Assembly (NCBI GenBank): GCA_001940645.1
Contig: MDVS01000110.1
Coordinates: forward strand, 1 to 38,830
Length of the DNA: 38,830 nt
Direction of reading: 5' to 3'
Source of the DNA: Candidatus Heimdallarchaeota archaeon LC_3
GTDB lineage: Archaea > Asgardarchaeota > Heimdallarchaeia > Hodarchaeales > LC-3
Shown piece by piece: positions 1,909 through 38,127 of the stretch. Positions within the stretch are counted from its first letter, which is position 1; each line of letters begins with the position of its first letter. The translations under genes were made by a program, and so were the position numbers. The notes beneath the pieces were generated by a model. That model did not search any database. It was not told where the DNA came from and saw only the letters and a program-made list of their open reading frames with translations.

Positions 1909-3045
1909 TTATAGCGGTTTTTGTGCCCGGATTACACGATCATCATTAAGTAGGAAATTTCTTTCAATTTGTGCAAACCCAGCTTTTAGTAACCATTCCC
2001 GATGCTCTTTTTCGGTATAGGGCGCTGGAACATCATAATAATTGATACTACCAAGCTTATGCCAGACTTCTTCAGGTGGGGAGATATGGGAGTCATCTAA
2101 AATGTGTCCTAGTATGTATAACATCCCTCCTGGCTTTATAATGGTGTAGATATTACTGAGTAATTGTGGTATATCGAGGGGAGAAATTACTTGAATGAAA
2201 GCCCTTAAGACTACAACATCATATTGACCTGTTATAGGACCGGTAACTGCATTAGCGGTAACAATTTGAATTCTATCACTCATTCCTGCTTGTTCTATAA
2301 ACCATAGCGTGACCGGAGTAACTGACGCGATATCTATCACTGTTACTTTTATATGGGGACATAATTCAGTGATAGCGATGGATAGTCCCCCAGGGCCACC
2401 TCCAACATCTACTAATGTCTGATAGGAGGAAAAGTCAAATTTGGTTACTAGTTCCCTCCCCGCTCGCATAGCAATAGGTTGAGTATGTTGAAAGTCCTGT
2501 TTTAATTCCTCTTCCGATTTGGTTGCAAAATCATATTTTAAAGCGGGGATTCCAGTTCGAATTGTGTCTGCAATTTTTAGAGCTCCATAAAAATCCCACG
2601 ACATTATGAGCGGATTGAGAAATGGATGATTCCCAATATATGATGAGGTATTAGGTACCAAGAACTGACTAGCTTCCCTTCCATTAGAAAAGAGGTTATC
2701 CTCTAATCTTAATAATTTTGCAGTTACAAGAGCATAAAGCAAGGGTTCTAACTTGTCTTGTCTTACACAAAGAGTACCAGCAATTTCCTGAGCATCCATA
2801 GGGTTATCATTTAATAAAGAAAAAACCTTAAGATTAATACCTGCTAACATTGCCAATGCGGGATGTACTGCAAAGGCAATTTTTTTGATGTAATTTGGAG
2901 AGGATATATCTCTAGTCACAATTTTGACCTCTGATAGAATGTCTATTACGAGAACTGTTATTAATTCGACTGTTATTCTTTTACTAACAGAATAATTATT
3001 TATCGGTGGTTCTTGAAAAACTTCATCTTTTCTTTTTATAAACAT
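1909..3045 (-). CDS. SAM-dependent O-methyltransferase, acetylserotonin-methyltransferase type
   Basis: 378 residues. An N-terminal winged-helix/dimerisation region (about 50-135) precedes a Rossmann SAM-binding domain with the glycine motif VDVGGGPGG at 212-220, an acidic ribose contact region (VIDIA, 236-240) and the KPGG turn at 304-307. In this family a catalytic His usually sits in an LHDW-type segment; here the matching stretch reads IQVISPLD (about 284-291), so the usual base seems to be missing, and the substrate cannot be inferred. The first 45 residues do not resemble the family and the true start may be internal. Base composition stands out: the lines 2341-2400 and 2401-2460 count about 47% and 40% G+C, against about 32% in an enolase line, suggesting recent transfer, probably from bacteria. 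Confidence 0.85.
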   Translation of the reverse strand: MFIKRKDEVFQEPPINNYSVSKRITVELITVLVIDILSEVKIVTRDISSPNYIKKIAFAVHPALAMLAGINLKVFSLLNDNPMDAQEIAGTLCVRQDKLEPLLYALVTAKLLRLEDNLFSNGREASQFLVPNTSSYIGNHPFLNPLIMSWDFYGALKIADTIRTGIPALKYDFATKSEEELKQDFQHTQPIAMRAGRELVTKFDFSSYQTLVDVGGGPGGLSIAITELCPHIKVTVIDIASVTPVTLWFIEQAGMSDRIQIVTANAVTGPITGQYDVVVLRAFIQVISPLDIPQLLSNIYTIIKPGGMLYILGHILDDSHISPPEEVWHKLGSINYYDVPAPYTEKEHREWLLKAGFAQIERNFLLNDDRVIRAQKPL

Positions 3046-6566: not shown

Positions 6567-7391
6567 CTAATTTTTTGCTTTTAGATTCCAAAACAAAATA
6601 TCAGTAATCATCGCATCTGTTTCTATTTTCGTAGGAGTCATCATACAAAAATAATAATCTTGATTTAAAGAACCAAAATGTGCTAATTCAATTATAGCTT
6701 TTTGTTTACTAAAATTTTCTTTTTCTTGATTTTCTTTAAAAAGAAAAAAATCTTTATGGCTCATTAGTTTGGTATCAGATTCAGCATCAGCGGAAGGTAA
6801 ATCAAGAATTAAGACTTTTATATCTGGATATTTTTCAGTTAGAGATTTTGATACTTTTTGTCCTAATGAAATAAAATTTTTTCCAGAAAAATTATAATGT
6901 TCTGGAAGCTGTGAAGATTTAGTTTTTAGAGCAAGAATATCTGGAATAATCTCTAAATTGTCTAATTTCTTTCTGATGAACTCCCAATTTAAAACTTTGT
7001 TATTAACAGCAGATTCACTTATACAGTCGAGAAGAAATACCAATCCATTTATTAATTTTGGTTCTAAATCCTTAACAGTGATTTTAATTTTTTGATCATT
7101 CGTTATATGAGAAGATGTTTCAATATGAGTTAAAGAATGAGGGCAAAAAGATAATACATTGACATTACAAGGCCCTCCTTTATTTATATCCCCAATAAAT
7201 CCTGAATTAGTTTTCAAAGGAGTTGATTGCACTATAGGTAAATAAAATGCCTCAGAAGACTTAAAACCTTCTCTGTATAATATATTACGACTTACAGAGG
7301 TGGGATTAGTTAGAACAAAAGATTTAGATTGATTTTTTCTATCATTAACATTGATTTCTAAAGAATAAGTCATATGAATTCTAATCACCAC
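6567..7391 (-). CDS. kynB: Cyclase-family hydrolase, probable kynurenine formamidase
   Basis: 274 residues of the cyclase/arylformamidase fold. The metal-binding motif of the family (H-x3-H-x-D/E-x3-H) appears as HSLTHIETSSH at residues 85-95. Such enzymes hydrolyse N-formylkynurenine to kynurenine and formate, the second step of tryptophan breakdown. Relaxed members act on other esters or amides, so the name rests on the neighbour: the divergently transcribed gene 74 bases away is tryptophan 2,3-dioxygenase, which makes the substrate. The start at GTG 7391 could equally be ATG 7373 (Met7), which better fits the conserved region. The protein has an insertion-rich C-terminal half, longer than the roughly 210 residues of bacterial KynB. 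Confidence 0.75.
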   Translation of the reverse strand: MVIRIHMTYSLEINVNDRKNQSKSFVLTNPTSVSRNILYREGFKSSEAFYLPIVQSTPLKTNSGFIGDINKGGPCNVNVLSFCPHSLTHIETSSHITNDQKIKITVKDLEPKLINGLVFLLDCISESAVNNKVLNWEFIRKKLDNLEIIPDILALKTKSSQLPEHYNFSGKNFISLGQKVSKSLTEKYPDIKVLILDLPSADAESDTKLMSHKDFFLFKENQEKENFSKQKAIIELAHFGSLNQDYYFCMMTPTKIETDAMITDILFWNLKAKN

Positions 7392-7465
7392 AATATTTTA
7401 ATTCAATATGAATTTATCTTTCTATTTAATTAATATGAGTTTTATTCGATAATTGAGGAAAAACC
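7392..7465. promoter_or_regulatory. Shared divergent promoter region of the two kynurenine genes
   Basis: Only 74 AT-rich bases separate the two divergent starts, so both promoters must overlap here. TATTTAATTAATAT (about 7424-7437) is a plausible TATA element for the dioxygenase, and GAGG at 7454-7457 precedes its TTG start. The exact elements are not certain. Confidence 0.4.
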
Positions 7466-8569
7466 TTGAGTAAAAAAGATTTGACATATTGGGATTATCT
7501 GAAGTTAGATACAATCCTTAATTTACAAACTGGTTTCAATAAAGAAGAAGGATTTATTAATACTGACGAATTGCATTTCATAATAGTCCATCAAACATTA
7601 GAACTTTGGTTTAAACTATTTATTAGAGATATGAAAGATATTGTAGATATTTTAAATGTCGAACTAGTCCCAGAAACCTCTATACCATTAATTGTAGAAA
7701 AATTGAAAAGATCCTCTCAAATAGTCAGACTAGCTACTAATCATTTTGACGTTTTGGAAACTTTACTTCCACAAAATTTTTTAGAATTCCGTAATAAATT
7801 GGGAACAGCTAGTGGCTTCCAATCTGTTCAAATGAGAGAAATGGAAATTCTTATGGGTTTAGACGATAAACAAAGATTTTCATTAGGAGGAAGTAATGCT
7901 ATCGAACACATTAAAAGTGCTGCCATTCTTTCAGAGGCTGGTAAGAGAGCATGGGAAAGAATAGAAAAAATTAAAAAAGATACAAATCTGAAAGTTGTAC
8001 TTAATGAATGGTTATATCGAACCCCAATAAATGGTTCATCTCCTGAACTCACATCTGATGTTAAAGTTGTAGAAGATTTTATTGAAAGTTATCTTCAAGG
8101 ATATGAACTATTATTACAAGAACAAAAACAAAAACTACAAGAAACAGGTATTACTGATGTTCAATCGTTAAATAATAGAATGAAACTTTCACTTAATCAA
8201 GTTAAAGAGTTTTTAGAAGCAGCTGACATCCCTGAATCAGAAAAATATAAACAAAAACGTATCAGGGCAGGAATATTATTTATTGAATCGTATAGGAATT
8301 TACCATTACTAGCTTGGCCAAGATTATTGTTAGATTCCATCGTTGAATTAGAAGAACAATTTATTTTATTTAGAACAAGACATGCCAGAATGGTTGAAAG
8401 AATGATTGGAAGGAGAATAGGTACAGGAGGGTCATCAGGGGTAGATTATTTAGATGCTACCACTAAATATAGAATATTCACTGATTTATGGGCTGTTCGT
8501 ACTGCAATATTACCAAAATATTGTTTACCTGAATTGAATAATAAAGAATTTTACGATTTTGCTACTTGA
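7466..8569 (+). CDS. kynA: Tryptophan 2,3-dioxygenase
   Basis: 367 residues of the heme dioxygenase family that adds O2 across the indole ring of L-tryptophan to give N-formylkynurenine. The N-terminal distal histidine is in HFIIVHQTLELWFKLF (His42), the proximal heme ligand is His306 in RTRHARMVERMIG, and the substrate-ammonium loop GTGGSSG is at 319-325, followed by the conserved VDYLDATTKYRIFTDLW. It starts at TTG with a GAGG ribosome site. It is longer than bacterial enzymes (about 280) and closer to eukaryotic ones (about 400), with the extra residues in the middle helical region (about 165-260). The divergent formamidase makes a two-step kynurenine module; kynureninase is not in the window. 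Its O2 requirement implies exposure to oxygen. Confidence 0.93.
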   Translation: MSKKDLTYWDYLKLDTILNLQTGFNKEEGFINTDELHFIIVHQTLELWFKLFIRDMKDIVDILNVELVPETSIPLIVEKLKRSSQIVRLATNHFDVLETLLPQNFLEFRNKLGTASGFQSVQMREMEILMGLDDKQRFSLGGSNAIEHIKSAAILSEAGKRAWERIEKIKKDTNLKVVLNEWLYRTPINGSSPELTSDVKVVEDFIESYLQGYELLLQEQKQKLQETGITDVQSLNNRMKLSLNQVKEFLEAADIPESEKYKQKRIRAGILFIESYRNLPLLAWPRLLLDSIVELEEQFILFRTRHARMVERMIGRRIGTGGSSGVDYLDATTKYRIFTDLWAVRTAILPKYCLPELNNKEFYDFAT

Positions 8570-15652: not shown

Positions 15653-16597
15653 CTAACTACTATGTATATGATTTAACAAAACTTCTAATTGTTTAACTAC
15701 ATGAGTTGCAGTTCCATCAGTTAATATTCTTCTACTCTTTTCTCTTCCTAATGCGAATATTATTTCCCTTGTCATTCGACTTGTTGTTACACGGTAAGGT
15801 GCTTCTGACGTTCGTTCAACAATAATATCATCTCTCAATTTTTCGATTTGGTATATAGCATCTTTCGGGTTAATATTTCCTTGATTAAAATAATTGATCA
15901 TTACGTTTATTTTATCAATATCGTTATCACGGTCCTGATTCCCAAAGGTGGTTATATTTGATGATGGAGTTGAATATGAAGCAGGAGTCCTTTCAACTTG
16001 AGCAGGCTGTGATGGGGCAGGCTGTGATGGAGCGGATTGTGATGACGAAGGTTCCTTATAAACAGGTTTTTGTTGAATTGGCTCCTTTCTTATGACTTCC
16101 TCTCTTTGTGCAACATTAAGTGGTTCTTCCCTTTGAACAATTCCAGTTTTACTATTTTTAATTTCAGCAAGTATATTTTTATTATCAGCTACTGATTTTT
16201 TGAAAAATCTTGCTAATATTTTATCAATATTCTGAAATTCACCTAAAATAGTGGAATTGATTGAATCCAACTCTTCATGGATAATGCTTCTTATTTTTTC
16301 TTCATCAATTTTAGCAGTTGGTGAAGCACTTGAGGCAAAATTTTCTTCAGTTACAGCTTCTGGGAGAGGTAATCCGAATTTTTGGGAAACATCATTCAAT
16401 TGATTTCTTAACATTTGAGTTTGTAGCTTTAAGGAAATAATTTCTGTCATTAATGGATCCTCGTCCCCTAATCCGGCACTAGTTTGTAATGTCTTCATGT
16501 TTTTTGCAATTTCAAGCAATAATGGACCGAAAGTCTCTTCTAGAGTGCTTACTAATTCTTTCTTTACTATTTGAGCTATATCTTCTTTACTACTCAT
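15653..16597 (-). CDS. Helical protein with Pro/Gln/Ser linker, last gene of the GTPase operon
   Basis: 314 residues with no recognised domain. The N-terminal half (1-165) is helical and likely coiled-coil, with heptad-like stretches around MTEIISLKLQTQMLRNQLND. A disordered linker (about 170-225) is rich in P, S and Q and contains the tandem SAPSQPAPSQPA. A compact helical C-terminal domain follows (about 230-314), with INVMINYFNQGNINPKDAIY and ALGREKSRRILTDG. It begins 26 bases after the Rab-like GTPase gene stop on the same strand, so it is probably co-transcribed. The shape, two helical domains joined by a flexible linker, suits a scaffold or effector of the GTPase; this is inference. Confidence 0.65.
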   Translation of the reverse strand: MSSKEDIAQIVKKELVSTLEETFGPLLLEIAKNMKTLQTSAGLGDEDPLMTEIISLKLQTQMLRNQLNDVSQKFGLPLPEAVTEENFASSASPTAKIDEEKIRSIIHEELDSINSTILGEFQNIDKILARFFKKSVADNKNILAEIKNSKTGIVQREEPLNVAQREEVIRKEPIQQKPVYKEPSSSQSAPSQPAPSQPAQVERTPASYSTPSSNITTFGNQDRDNDIDKINVMINYFNQGNINPKDAIYQIEKLRDDIIVERTSEAPYRVTTSRMTREIIFALGREKSRRILTDGTATHVVKQLEVLLNHIHSS

Positions 16598-16623
16598 AAT
16601 TCAGTCACTTTTTCATATCATTT

Positions 16624-17187
16624 TTAAACATCAATCAATTGGGTAAATATAGCTTTCACTATATCGCTAAATACTTCTTTAACATTAGTTCCATCTTTGG
16701 AAGAGGTGAGAAAATAGTTATTGTTCCTGATTTTTCTTTTTTTAATGAAATCATCAATTTCTTCTGTATCAACTTTAGAATTCAGATCACTTTTTGTTTG
16801 AATAAGAATTTTTGGGATTGGATCGGTTATTAGGGAGGATAATACTTCATCCCATTCGATCAATTTTTTTAAAGTTTCTGGTCGAGTGGTATCAAAACAA
16901 AGCAATACTCCTTGTGTTCCGGCAGAGTATAAAGGTAAGACTTCTCTAAATTTTTCTTCACCACTGGCATCCCAAATTTGTAATACGAGTGTTTCATCCT
17001 CTTTTAATATTTTAGGTATAGCATTTTCAGACCCAAAAATCTTTTTAGTAAAGAAGTCTATACCAATAGTTGACTTTGTTCCAACTAAAAATCTATTAGA
17101 CAAGTACCGTTGAATTAAAGTGGTTTTACCAACCGCAGATTCACCTGCTACGAGAATTTTTATGAGATAAGAGGCTCCACTATTCAT
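16624..17187 (-). CDS. Rab/Ras-like small GTPase
   Basis: 187 residues with the full set of small-GTPase motifs. The P-loop is GESAVGKT (15-22), switch I has Thr40 (STIGIDF), and G3 is DASGEE (73-78). G4 reads TKSD (131-134), with Thr where Asn is usual, and G5 reads TSSKDG (161-166). The layout and FLVGTKSTIGIDF are closest to Rab-type proteins, as known from Asgard archaea. The residue matching Ras Gln61 is Glu77, which in eukaryotic GTPases often lowers intrinsic hydrolysis. No C-terminal cysteine exists, so no lipid anchor is expected. It sits between the tandem longin-like gene (52 bases upstream) and the linker protein (26 bases downstream). Confidence 0.92.
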   Translation of the reverse strand: MNSGASYLIKILVAGESAVGKTTLIQRYLSNRFLVGTKSTIGIDFFTKKIFGSENAIPKILKEDETLVLQIWDASGEEKFREVLPLYSAGTQGVLLCFDTTRPETLKKLIEWDEVLSSLITDPIPKILIQTKSDLNSKVDTEEIDDFIKKRKIRNNNYFLTSSKDGTNVKEVFSDIVKAIFTQLIDV

Positions 17188-17239
17188 CTTGATCAGTATC
17201 TATTTTTTAATGCTATTTTGAATTGAATGATTTTTTCTA

Positions 17240-18244
17240 TTAGAACCACTTTTTCTTTCCTGATTCTTTATTTAATTTTTCTAAATATTTTGGCAAGGAG
17301 TCGTAAGTAGATATCAATTTTTTCATTGACCAATTATTTAACTCTTCTTTTATCATTTCTGACAATTTCTCGGCAAGGAATTCAGATAATGACATACTTA
17401 GTTGTTTAAGAATTTTGTCATCTAATTTATTTAATTCATTAAGGAATTTTTTGTCTTTAAATAATGTATCCCATCTAGTTAAAGAAAGAAAAACATCCTC
17501 ACCTTTTATTACCTCTAAGGGAAATAACGTATCTCCACCAAATACTAATGATTTTGGGCTAGATTCAAATAATTCTTTACAAAACATATATAAGACGGAC
17601 AAATAACCTGCTAATGATGTTGCATTTGTCACATTTCCATACTTCAAATGTATTGGTCCGGATTCATCAGCAATAATTGCCCAAGCATCTGTTTCTGGAT
17701 GTTTTTCAGCAAATATTTTTCTTAGTTGAAAATGAAAAAGCAACATTTCTACTAACGAAAATTCGCTGAAAGAGCATCTACCCTTTTCTACAACGTTTTT
17801 AATGTCCTTATCGTAGCCTATTTCATTTAAAGCTGTCCAAAATAAGTCATCTACCTTTGCACCATTTTCTGAGGACGTATAAAGATTAGCATATAAATTT
17901 GTTGCTTGACCTATTAAAACACTCCGCATTTGGTCTTCTAAGATATTCGGAAGATCCTCGTGGTATATTAATCGCATAGTGATTAATGGATCAGATGCTA
18001 TAAAGAAGAAAGTGCTATGTAAAGAAACAACAAAAATTTCAGATGCAGAAACAGCTTTATTTGACTTCTGGTCTAATGTGATACTCGCTACCCCCGTGCC
18101 ACTACCAAAAAGTTCTTTTCCCATAGAATCAAGCCCATTTAGGAAATTCACCGTATTATCCATAAACTCGGGTGTAAGTTCTCCAAAGTGCCACATAATC
18201 TCAGTTTCTTTTGCAAATATTGCCCAATTAGATGTTGTTGTCAT
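17240..18244 (-). CDS. Protein with two longin/roadblock-like domains, putative GTPase regulator
   Basis: 334 residues containing an internal duplication. Copy 1 (about 6-90) begins NWAIFAKETEIMWHFGEL and has a helix VNFLNGLDSMGKELF and strands ending FFFIASDP. Copy 2 (about 187-265) begins AWAIIADESGPIHLKYGNV, has a helix GYLSVLYMFCKELF and strands ending VFLSLTRW. The beta-beta-helix-beta-beta order is that of longin and roadblock/LC7 domains, many of which occur in Asgard archaea. A helical tail (270-334) follows. Tandem longin proteins in eukaryotes act as Rab exchange factors or platforms (Mon1-Ccz1, DENN). Being the first gene of the run with a Rab-like GTPase, a regulator role is plausible. 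No catalytic residue can be pointed to. Confidence 0.7.
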   Translation of the reverse strand: MTTTSNWAIFAKETEIMWHFGELTPEFMDNTVNFLNGLDSMGKELFGSGTGVASITLDQKSNKAVSASEIFVVSLHSTFFFIASDPLITMRLIYHEDLPNILEDQMRSVLIGQATNLYANLYTSSENGAKVDDLFWTALNEIGYDKDIKNVVEKGRCSFSEFSLVEMLLFHFQLRKIFAEKHPETDAWAIIADESGPIHLKYGNVTNATSLAGYLSVLYMFCKELFESSPKSLVFGGDTLFPLEVIKGEDVFLSLTRWDTLFKDKKFLNELNKLDDKILKQLSMSLSEFLAEKLSEMIKEELNNWSMKKLISTYDSLPKYLEKLNKESGKKKWF

Positions 18245-18440: not shown

Positions 18441-19799
18441 TTAAATATCTACACGTTTTTTTCCACAATTAATGCAAAAATTTGAGCTTCCTAGTAACTT
18501 TGAACCACAGTACACGCAAAATTTTTGAATTTCCACTTCATTGGACTTCGATTTTGTTTCATCTAGATGTGTTTCATTAATTAATTTATCTAAATCAATT
18601 TTAGGGTTTTTAATTGAAGTTAAATGATTAATAGTAGATCTAAACAAATATAGAATTATAATAAACAGAAAAATAAAAACAAGATCACTTAAAATGACAA
18701 AAATGAAAGCATCATTACTATTCAATTTAAAAATATCTTCATAAATGAATTTTCTTAAAAAAACACTCCAAATAACCGTAAAAAATATAAAAATTAATAA
18801 AACAAACAATCCAATTAATATTTTATTTCTTAATGAATTACTAACCGACGAAGGAATTTGCTCTATAAAAAGATTAATCTTTTTTTTTCTCTCCCCATTA
18901 AATAATACTTTTCCAATAATAACAAGTCCAACAATCGTTTGTACTATTAGTAACAGACTTAATATAGAAAGGATAGCATAATCATTTAAACGGTTTGGAT
19001 CAACTTCGGCACTGATATCAATATCCAAATACGCTAATAATAATTGTGTAATAAAGGGAAGAAAATTGTTAAATCCATGAAAAAGAATTGGATAAATAAT
19101 ATTTCTCGTTAATATATAGACGAAACCTAACCCTAACCCTAAAATTATCGCGTTTACTCCATGTATAAAGGCAAATACAGCATTACCATTAACTAAATCA
19201 TTATCCGTATGAATTAGTCCAAAGCATAATGATGAAATTATCAATGCTCCATAAGTTCCATGACCTCCTTCAAGTAATGGGATTAATATTCTTCTAAATA
19301 CAAATTCTTCAAATATTGGGGCTAAAATAATTATAAGAATGAATAATAAAAGTACATTAAATATGGTTAAATTTTCAGAAACCAATGTTATACTTTCATA
19401 AGAAGATTCTGGAATATTATTAATGATTGCACTTAATGTTGTTATAATGAATCCAAATACAAAAACCAAGCTAAAGGCACTCAAATAAATATAAAAAGTT
19501 TCTTTTATTCCGAAATTTCTGTTTGCAGTTTGAGGATTTAGGTTTAAAATTGATAATTTAATCAAAATCAAAATTATTACCAACATTAAGATTACTATAA
19601 CAACGTTTAGAAGTAAATTAAGTAATAAATCAAATTTTGGGTCATTTCCAGGATTCGTTAAATCTGTTATTATTCTAGAAACAATTAATCCAAGAAAATC
19701 TCGTAAAAAAAGTAGCATTAATATTAAAATTATAGGGAGAACAAATTTCTTTAAATTAAAATCAGATTGGGAATGGATACTAGATGGAATATTAGTCAA
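18441..19799 (-). CDS. CPBP-family intramembrane glutamic protease with C-terminal zinc ribbon
   Basis: 452 residues with at least ten hydrophobic segments. The CPBP/CAAX-protease motifs are in order: EEFVFRR (Glu164-Glu165-x3-Arg169), His197 in FGLIH, and HGFNN (His241, Asn244/245). This is the family of eukaryotic Rce1, which trims CAAX proteins, and of bacterial Abi proteins. A further membrane region (about 320-410) and a zinc ribbon (Cys428, Cys431, Cys442, Cys445) extend the C-terminus beyond the catalytic domain. The start is TTG with an AGGT ribosome site upstream. It lies 196 bases upstream of the longin/GTPase gene run on the same strand; a functional link to that GTPase is not shown, and the GTPase has no CAAX end. 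Confidence 0.85.
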   Translation of the reverse strand: MTNIPSSIHSQSDFNLKKFVLPIILILMLLFLRDFLGLIVSRIITDLTNPGNDPKFDLLLNLLLNVVIVILMLVIILILIKLSILNLNPQTANRNFGIKETFYIYLSAFSLVFVFGFIITTLSAIINNIPESSYESITLVSENLTIFNVLLLFILIIILAPIFEEFVFRRILIPLLEGGHGTYGALIISSLCFGLIHTDNDLVNGNAVFAFIHGVNAIILGLGLGFVYILTRNIIYPILFHGFNNFLPFITQLLLAYLDIDISAEVDPNRLNDYAILSILSLLLIVQTIVGLVIIGKVLFNGERKKKINLFIEQIPSSVSNSLRNKILIGLFVLLIFIFFTVIWSVFLRKFIYEDIFKLNSNDAFIFVILSDLVFIFLFIIILYLFRSTINHLTSIKNPKIDLDKLINETHLDETKSKSNEVEIQKFCVYCGSKLLGSSNFCINCGKKRVDI

Positions 19800-37044: not shown

Positions 37045-38127
37045 TTGGTTTGGAAAATAGGGTCAGTAGGACCACAAGGAAGTGGTAAAACACGTACAAT
37101 AATGGAAGTGTGTAACCAACTTATTGAAAATAAATATTTATGGGAGGAAGAAGAAAATTTAGCTGGTACAACTATTGTAAAACCTTTTACTATACTTATT
37201 GATAATAAAAAACTAATTATCGCTGATAATCCAGGTCAAAATTCTTTAGAAATGGTAAGGAAAAGTGTTGCTCAATCAGGAGCAGATTACACAGGAATAC
37301 TAATATTTGTTGATTCTCTTCAATTTAATTTTAGAGAAATTGGATTGTTTCATGCTATGAGCATTGCAAACTATGTTAAGCAAGAAGGGCTACCTGTAGC
37401 CTTAATCACCACTAAAGCTGATTTGATTCAACGGTTTTTCCAATCTGATTTATTGACAAGAATCTGTTATATACTAGAATCAGGTGTTCAAAACATTTTT
37501 GATGGACAAAATATTCCCTATTTTGACAGAACAAGAAAGCTGCACAGTGAATTTATTTTACACATAAATGATGGATGGATTCCTTTTCTTGAATTAGAAC
37601 AAGTTTTAATAAATGCTTTGGAGTATAATATAAATCCCTTAAATGTACCTGGATTTACAATGATGAATGTTCGTCTATTTGCTAGATCAATACTGTTAGG
37701 ATATTGTCAATTTTATAAAGAGAAACATCCAGACTTTATCCAACAATATCCTATTTTTAATGCACTGTATTCTGATTATGACTTTATTAATTCATTGAAT
37801 TACAACAGACCATCAGCTATGGAGACAGGTACACCGTGGAGGTTCATAGCAGCACAATCAAAATCTAAATTCGTAGATAAAAATGAACCACCTTTTCAAC
37901 AATCAGCATTTTATGCCAATAATATTGAATTTGTTTTAAAAAATTACTGCCTTGCAAGTCCAACAAGACACATGGTCTACGAAGGAGAATTGAGACAAAA
38001 AGTCTTCGATATGGGCTGGAAATTCATAGGATCAACCTTCACTGACTCAATAACTCCAGGTGGCATCCAGAATTCAATAAACATAATTTATAAGCTAGCA
38101 GAGGCAGCAGAAGAATACTCAAAATGA
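37045..38127 (+). CDS. Divergent P-loop GTPase with long C-terminal domain
   Basis: 360 residues. The P-loop GPQGSGKT (9-16) begins the protein; switch-I-like threonines are at 42-43 (GTT); G3 is DNPGQ (61-65), keeping the Gln; and G4-like TTKAD is at 122-126. A long C-terminal region (about 190-360) resembles no domain I know, and is rich in aromatic residues. No signal peptide or lipid motif is visible. The start is TTG. The unusual fusion suggests an Arf/Sar-like or Gtr-like GTPase of Asgard archaea, with the extra domain perhaps dimerising. The TPR gene is 240 bases upstream on the same strand. Confidence 0.75.
   Translation: MVWKIGSVGPQGSGKTRTIMEVCNQLIENKYLWEEEENLAGTTIVKPFTILIDNKKLIIADNPGQNSLEMVRKSVAQSGADYTGILIFVDSLQFNFREIGLFHAMSIANYVKQEGLPVALITTKADLIQRFFQSDLLTRICYILESGVQNIFDGQNIPYFDRTRKLHSEFILHINDGWIPFLELEQVLINALEYNINPLNVPGFTMMNVRLFARSILLGYCQFYKEKHPDFIQQYPIFNALYSDYDFINSLNYNRPSAMETGTPWRFIAAQSKSKFVDKNEPPFQQSAFYANNIEFVLKNYCLASPTRHMVYEGELRQKVFDMGWKFIGSTFTDSITPGGIQNSINIIYKLAEAAEEYSK

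Follow-up and report, generated by a model that had tools for sequence, protein, structure and literature searches.

Two homologous longin-type domains in an archaeal protein encoded beside a Rab-like GTPase: a candidate GTPase regulator

Contig MDVS01000110.1 of Candidatus Heimdallarchaeota archaeon LC_3 (assembly GCA_001940645.1), whose 38,830 nucleotides are referred to here as the window, carries three consecutive minus-strand genes encoding a 334-residue tandem-longin protein (17240-18244), a 187-residue Rab-like small GTPase (16624-17187), and a 314-residue helical protein (15653-16597). The longin protein contains two homologous longin-type domains, as judged by profile comparison and a predicted model, and, to judge by matching contig sizes, the longin and GTPase genes recur together on contigs of a single clade. 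We give an even chance to the proposal that this protein serves as a platform of two longins, binding the adjacent GTPase and regulating its nucleotide state. An earlier note, made from the sequence alone, had placed the three genes correctly, and its gaps of 52 bases between the longin and GTPase genes and 26 bases between the GTPase and helical genes were verified along with strand and coordinates. Public data yielded 43 rows of relatives for the longin protein, 53 for the GTPase, and 3 for the helical protein, the last two counts including the window's own sequence.

The motif WAIFAKETEI starts at residue 7 of the longin protein and WAIIADESGP at residue 188, and the earlier note had read the two as marks of an internal longin/roadblock-like duplication. 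Alignment of copy 1 to copy 2 with hhalign gave P = 1.3e-4 with the 43-sequence alignment and P = 2.1e-6 with a wider 65-sequence alignment. None of 100 column-permuted controls for the 43-sequence comparison reached its score of 30.2 (control maximum 24.2). At the level of sequence profiles, the apparent internal duplication exceeds chance. The AlphaFold2 model of the protein alone, a check that the earlier note had proposed, was built from 43 aligned sequences and has a mean predicted local distance difference test (pLDDT) score of 87.1 and a predicted template modelling (TM) score of 0.84. Copy 1 (residues 8-124, positions 17873-18223) has the order β-β-α-β-β-β-α-α in this model, the arrangement typical of longins, with strands at residues 8-12, 15-20, 50-58, 69-75, and 79-84 and helices at 25-46, 86-93, and 100-124. 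Copy 2 (residues 189-302, positions 17339-17680) has strands at 189-193, 198-202, 229-236, 240-247, and 251-255, a helix at 208-226, and further helices up to residue 302. The copies are joined by a mostly helical linker (residues 128-181, positions 17702-17863), and a C-terminal helix follows (residues 307-328, positions 17261-17326). Both copies are thus predicted to form a five-stranded sheet of β-β-α-β-β-β order with flanking helices, which is the longin/roadblock superfamily fold; the earlier note had named failure to adopt it as grounds for abandoning its idea. Copy 1 and the linker retained the fold when modelled without copy 2 (184 residues, pLDDT 82.8). Longin and roadblock domains are told apart by topology (PMC10933270). 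In copy 2 the two are indistinguishable by topology because helix 164-181 stands before it in the model.

Searches with the longin protein gave no significant match in Pfam, NCBIfam, or the PDB sequences, the last queried with single and with aligned longins. A Pfam match of TetR_HI_0893_C to the C-terminal helices (E = 0.006) lies under the cutoff, and LANC_like matches 7 of 65 paralogues weakly (best 4.8e-5); both are taken as probable chance matches on helical stretches. Seven of the nine top Foldseek rows for the whole model come from entries of the HerMon exchange factors (Fuzzy-Inturned, Mon1-Ccz1) and span 334-399 alignment columns, and these rows are weak, with TM scores near 0.2 and a best E of 1e-4, the one E value under 0.001. 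All 50 rows listed for copy 1 alone are roadblock/longin proteins or complexes containing them, judged by their titles, and include VAMP7 longin rows. The highest single-domain Z belongs to MglB, Z differences under 1 being ties, and Ragulator and roadblock rows equal HerMon rows in these single-domain searches. Odin and MK-D1 roadblock structures are also among the fold matches. BLOC-3, TRAPP, and DENN gave only weaker rows in whole and single-domain searches; the earlier note had drawn a likeness to Mon1-Ccz1 and DENN platforms.

HerMon proteins are defined by three longins per subunit, for which a homodimeric three-repeat precursor has been inferred (PMC7703760). Membership of the window protein among these tri-longin Rab guanine nucleotide exchange factors (RabGEFs) was considered and rejected: its model has two longins and a C-terminal helix rather than three longins, and the sequence match is weak. 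PF19036 matched 6 of the 43 family members weakly (best E = 0.019), the window protein not being one of them, and in the wider 65-sequence set PF19036 was found in three and PF19031 in one. For P0017, the one match compared with its curated cutoff, the score was 14.2 bits against 26.1, short of a HerMon sequence assignment. The idea of an archaeal version of a longin exchange-factor module, put forward in the earlier note, is partly supported.

The GTPase is Rab-like, as the earlier note had it. Pfam Ras matches with E = 1.5e-33 (116.1 bits against a cutoff of 21.6), and the best PDB sequence matches are all Rab or RABA proteins (RABA1a, Rab11B, Rab23, Rab3C, Rab7). With the window's own sequence, 24 sequences of at least 47% identity form a subfamily; the next relatives are at 45% or below, except one 112-residue fragment. 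A search of 19 Asgard genomes with the window GTPase returned 14 to 73 matches per genome. The best scored 122.7 bits and the listed rows were at most 45% identical, compared with at least 163 bits within the subfamily; because these values fall below the subfamily range, the subfamily itself was not seen in the 19 genomes. In the P-loop GESAVGKT (residues 15-22, positions 17122-17145), G15, V19, G20, K21, and T22 are invariant across 30 aligned sequences. The P-loop, T40, W-D-x-x-G, and TKxD are retained across the subfamily, leaving the G1 and G4 motifs intact. The window's G4 motif is TKSD (residues 131-134, positions 16786-16797), where the usual form in Rab-type GTPases is NKxD. The G3 motif DASGE (16957-16971) has Glu in place of the Rab/Ras catalytic Gln and reads SGE in 24/24 subfamily members; of 40 background Asgard GTPases, 30 carry Gln at this position and six carry Glu. 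The protein ends in QLIDV, without the C-terminal prenylation cysteine that is a feature of eukaryotic Rabs.

Switch I of the GTPase (F33 to T40, positions 17068-17091) contains the basic residue K38. The Mon1-Ccz1 mechanism pushes the switch I K38 into the nucleotide pocket, the exchange factor binds F33 and Y37, and the substrate GTPase Ypt7 carries the Tyr-basic pair Y37-K38 (PMC12383261). Position 38 is Lys or Arg in all 24 subfamily members, in 18 of the 39 background GTPases with a switch I motif (one more lacks the motif), and in 16 of 29 nearer GTPases. Position 33 is Phe in 22 members, Trp in one, and Tyr in one. Tyr at position 37 occurs in 0/24 of the subfamily versus 31/39 of the background. 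With position 38 always basic and position 37 never Tyr, the Mon1-Ccz1 substrate signature is therefore half present.

Pairing of the two genes in other assemblies was judged by identical contig size in bases together with agreeing source tags in the longin and GTPase match lists. Six other assemblies have a longin/GTPase pair on same-size contigs, and the window clade is represented in both its branches by these pairs: P0005/P0050 (2160 bases), P0025/P0060 (2341 bases), P0023/P0066 (8419 bases), P0014/P0065 (10838 bases), P0006/P0054 (11905 bases), and P0017/P0070 (417456 bases). The two genes would fill two thirds or more of the 2160- and 2341-base contigs and therefore must be close neighbours. 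A helical-protein relative, P0046, also fits the 11905-base contig; locus tags conventionally rise by five, and if they do so here, ACFFD1_00620 (P0006) and ACFFD1_00630 (P0046) leave space for one intervening gene. The nearest named longin relatives are from metagenome-assembled genomes, one labelled Hodarchaeales (P0003, 79% identity) and one labelled Thorarchaeota (P0006, 66%). A tree of 11 of the 43 longin relatives supports the window clade at 0.994, and this clade contains both branches of paired longins. Distances of the seven pairs, the window's included, correlate with r = 0.88, a value equalled or exceeded in 30 of 5040 permutations; vertical species descent alone can produce such a correlation.

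Several observations weigh against a regular partnership. Seven window-clade longins belong to clusters in which the longest contig measures at least 9 kb, and four of them (P0003, P0013, P0016, P0022) have no GTPase among the listed matches on a contig of the same size; the same is true of P0028, which the tree places outside the window clade. Apart from the window's own, five subfamily GTPases lie on contigs this long, and for two of them (P0061, P0062) no same-size longin is listed. The earlier note had looked to the same three-gene order in other Asgard genomes and would have yielded to genes that did not stay together: the six longin/GTPase pairs answer in its favour, and the partnerless longer contigs and the scarcity of the helical gene, which has two relatives, do not. 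Across the phylum, 15 of 227 genomes match the longin protein at E = 0.001 or better, with 55 matches in total. Fourteen match strongly (E = 7.5e-52 or better) and have 1-6 tandem-longin genes each; the weak match in G090 (E = 2.2e-4) is not counted among them. Neighbourhoods were examined for 54 of the 55 matches, fragments, G090, and contig-end genes included and the 136-residue frame G048:C186 left out. Only one of the 54 (G054:C422) has an adjacent same-strand GTPase gene, 24 bases upstream.

The longin gene of G054:C422, downstream of this true GTPase gene, is one of nine longer relatives found in G053 (four) and G054 (five) at loci L076-L084, with lengths of 446-585 residues as translated and three of the nine running to the contig end. 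The C-terminal 200 or so residues of the eight fused proteins in which this part is long enough align to the window GTPase family with P = 4.3e-7 over 117 columns, and none of 100 permuted controls came near the score of 52.7 (maximum 18.5). The P-loop motif is present in 0/9 fused proteins and [NT]KxD in 0/9 C-terminal parts, and DxxG is kept in one. By sequence, the fused part is a degenerate GTPase-like domain, and its joining to a longin pair independently points to an association of longin pairs with GTPases. When the fused family is used as the query, its C-terminal part draws in GTPases; among 15 such loci inspected, nine have a P-loop, a tenth is assigned to Ras by Pfam, two encode small proteins matching copy 2, and three were dropped for a wrong frame. 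Beyond the G054:C422 GTPase gene lies the gene for a 619-residue protein with a hydrophobic segment near residues 438-463 and a weak longin-like C terminus (8.5 bits) that has no longin match in Pfam. This membrane protein, the Ras-like GTPase, and the longin-pseudoGTPase protein are possibly encoded by a second three-gene operon (L080:496-4762). Four genomes (G001, G002, G003, G051) have two tandem-longin genes side by side (L038:6323-8455, L039:6600-8741, L001:3770-5919, L046:6957-9163, L053:6838-8998), an arrangement that is only suggestive of heterodimer partners of the kind whose two longin subunits build the HerMon active site.

The third protein is judged helical from its sequence and belongs to no known family by Pfam, NCBIfam, and the relatives search. 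Its conserved ends flank a long variable linker, which is Pro/Ser/Gln-rich at residues 151-226 (15920-16147), poorly conserved, and in line with the Pro/Gln linker reported in the earlier note. The C-terminal region (residues 225-310, positions 15668-15925) is conserved in the 3-sequence alignment, and 65-75% of the columns at residues 241-300 are identical. The gene was not found beyond its two close relatives by word-based searching, which can miss fast-evolving proteins. Wide conservation of the three-gene unit was considered and rejected on this count, with the same limit.

In the proposed mechanism, the two longins, paired in a single chain or across a homodimer, would dock on the GTPase switch region, as in Mon1-Ccz1, Fuzzy-Inturned, TRAPP, and MglA-MglB. 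The effect may be nucleotide exchange in which the basic residue conserved at position 38 plays the part it has in Rab7, a step to which we give less weight. Intrinsic hydrolysis should be slow with Glu at the catalytic Gln position, and the switch would therefore be set by activation or by an outside GTPase-activating protein (GAP). The third protein, as a guess, may be an effector or adaptor confined to close relatives. The longin pair could instead be a Ragulator-like scaffold or effector that passes the GTPase to the helical protein and leaves its nucleotide unaffected. The equal standing of Ragulator, roadblock, and HerMon rows in single-domain searches agrees with such a role, as do the variable linker of the third protein and the loss of P-loop and [NT]KxD from the fused domain of G053 and G054, which is expected of a structural partner. 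We consider it rather unlikely, since the adjacent GTPase retains its nucleotide-binding motifs and the third gene is confined, within the reach of the search, to close relatives. The structural matches of the whole chain, together with the basic residue in switch I, favour exchange over both scaffolding and GAP activity, though not strongly.

An MglB-like GAP, a single chain whose two roadblock/longin domains would remodel the switches of a Gln-less GTPase, is kept alive by the G3 Glu and the MglB fold matches; it is improbable, given whole-chain matches that favour exchange factors and an MglB Z value tied with others. MglB is said to have dual GEF/GAP activity (PMC10933270), and likeness to its fold therefore leaves this reading undecided. 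Chance adjacency or mere co-expression with the GTPase, the longin protein being a coat or adaptor subunit, a SNARE-like protein, or a motility regulator, would account for the VAMP7 rows of copy 1 and for the nearly universal lack of a GTPase neighbour among the tandem-longin genes examined in other genomes. It sits badly with same-size contig pairs in both clade branches and with a GTPase-like domain fused to the longin pair in two genomes, and is very improbable. The regulatory platform proposed above admits a wider but doubtful version, in which the protein would be a tandem-longin Rab-type exchange factor of hodarchaeal archaea, a side branch or forerunner of HerMon, encoded in an operon with its cognate GTPase and represented elsewhere by paralogue pairs and pseudo-GTPase forms.

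The system shares with HerMon its tandem longins in one chain, HerMon entries giving the leading though weak whole-chain structural matches, and the adjacent Rab-like GTPase is basic at the Ypt7 K38 position. It differs in having two longins instead of three, a single gene rather than a known heterodimer, no significant sequence match, and a GTPase subfamily without Tyr beside the catalytic Lys. Like MglA-MglB, it combines a small GTPase with a roadblock/longin partner, but MglB is a roadblock homodimer (PMC10933270) and here two domains share one chain. Asgard GTPase, roadblock, longin, and TRAPPC3 proteins have been described, including roadblock and longin homodimers, GTPases fused to longin and/or roadblock, and one longin-TRAPPC3 fusion (PMC10933270). 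The window protein is of the same superfamily and host phylum, but its longins are in tandem, a word that occurs 0 times in that paper's text. In MK-D1, GTPase genes as a rule do not share operons with roadblock/longin genes (PMC10933270), unlike the window GTPase gene. The P-loop, IGxDF switch region, and W-D-x-x-G are shared with Rab11/RABA1, Rab7, and Rab23, from which the G3 Glu, TKxD, and missing C-terminal cysteine set the window GTPase apart. Homologues of HOPS, CORVET, GARP, and retromer are reported in Asgard archaea in a paper whose main text contains neither 'Mon1' nor 'longin' (PMC10307638); the passages of PMC12872458 mention neither. Among openly available papers, supplements aside, we found none on tandem-longin proteins in Asgard archaea.

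Upstream of the longin gene by 196 bases, on the same strand, an Rce1-like CAAX protease gene (18441-19799) encodes a C-terminal zinc ribbon; it lies near a GTPase without a C-terminal cysteine and is not counted in the three-gene unit. Elsewhere in the window, a tryptophan 2,3-dioxygenase gene (Pfam E = 6e-55) stands beside a putative cyclase gene (E = 1.4e-6) at 6567-8569. This dioxygenase is, to our knowledge, rare in archaea, and the cyclase may, as a guess, be a kynurenine formamidase. An O-methyltransferase with Methyltransf_2 and dimerisation domains in Pfam (1909-3045) may resemble acetylserotonin-type enzymes. A 360-residue protein (37045-38127) has an N-terminal P-loop-like GPQGSGKT and a weak Pfam match to ATP_bind_1.

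Asgard genomes are rich in small GTPases, few of which have an assigned regulator. The locus offers a one-to-one candidate pair of regulator and GTPase, open to expression and assay. The longin protein has relatives named as Hodarchaeales, an order called the closest to eukaryotes (PMC10307638). A two-longin protein beside a Rab-like switch, in an Asgard archaeon related to the ancestor of complex cells, resembles the activating platforms of eukaryotic membrane traffic. If the longin protein does exchange nucleotide, tandem-longin RabGEFs would predate eukaryotes.
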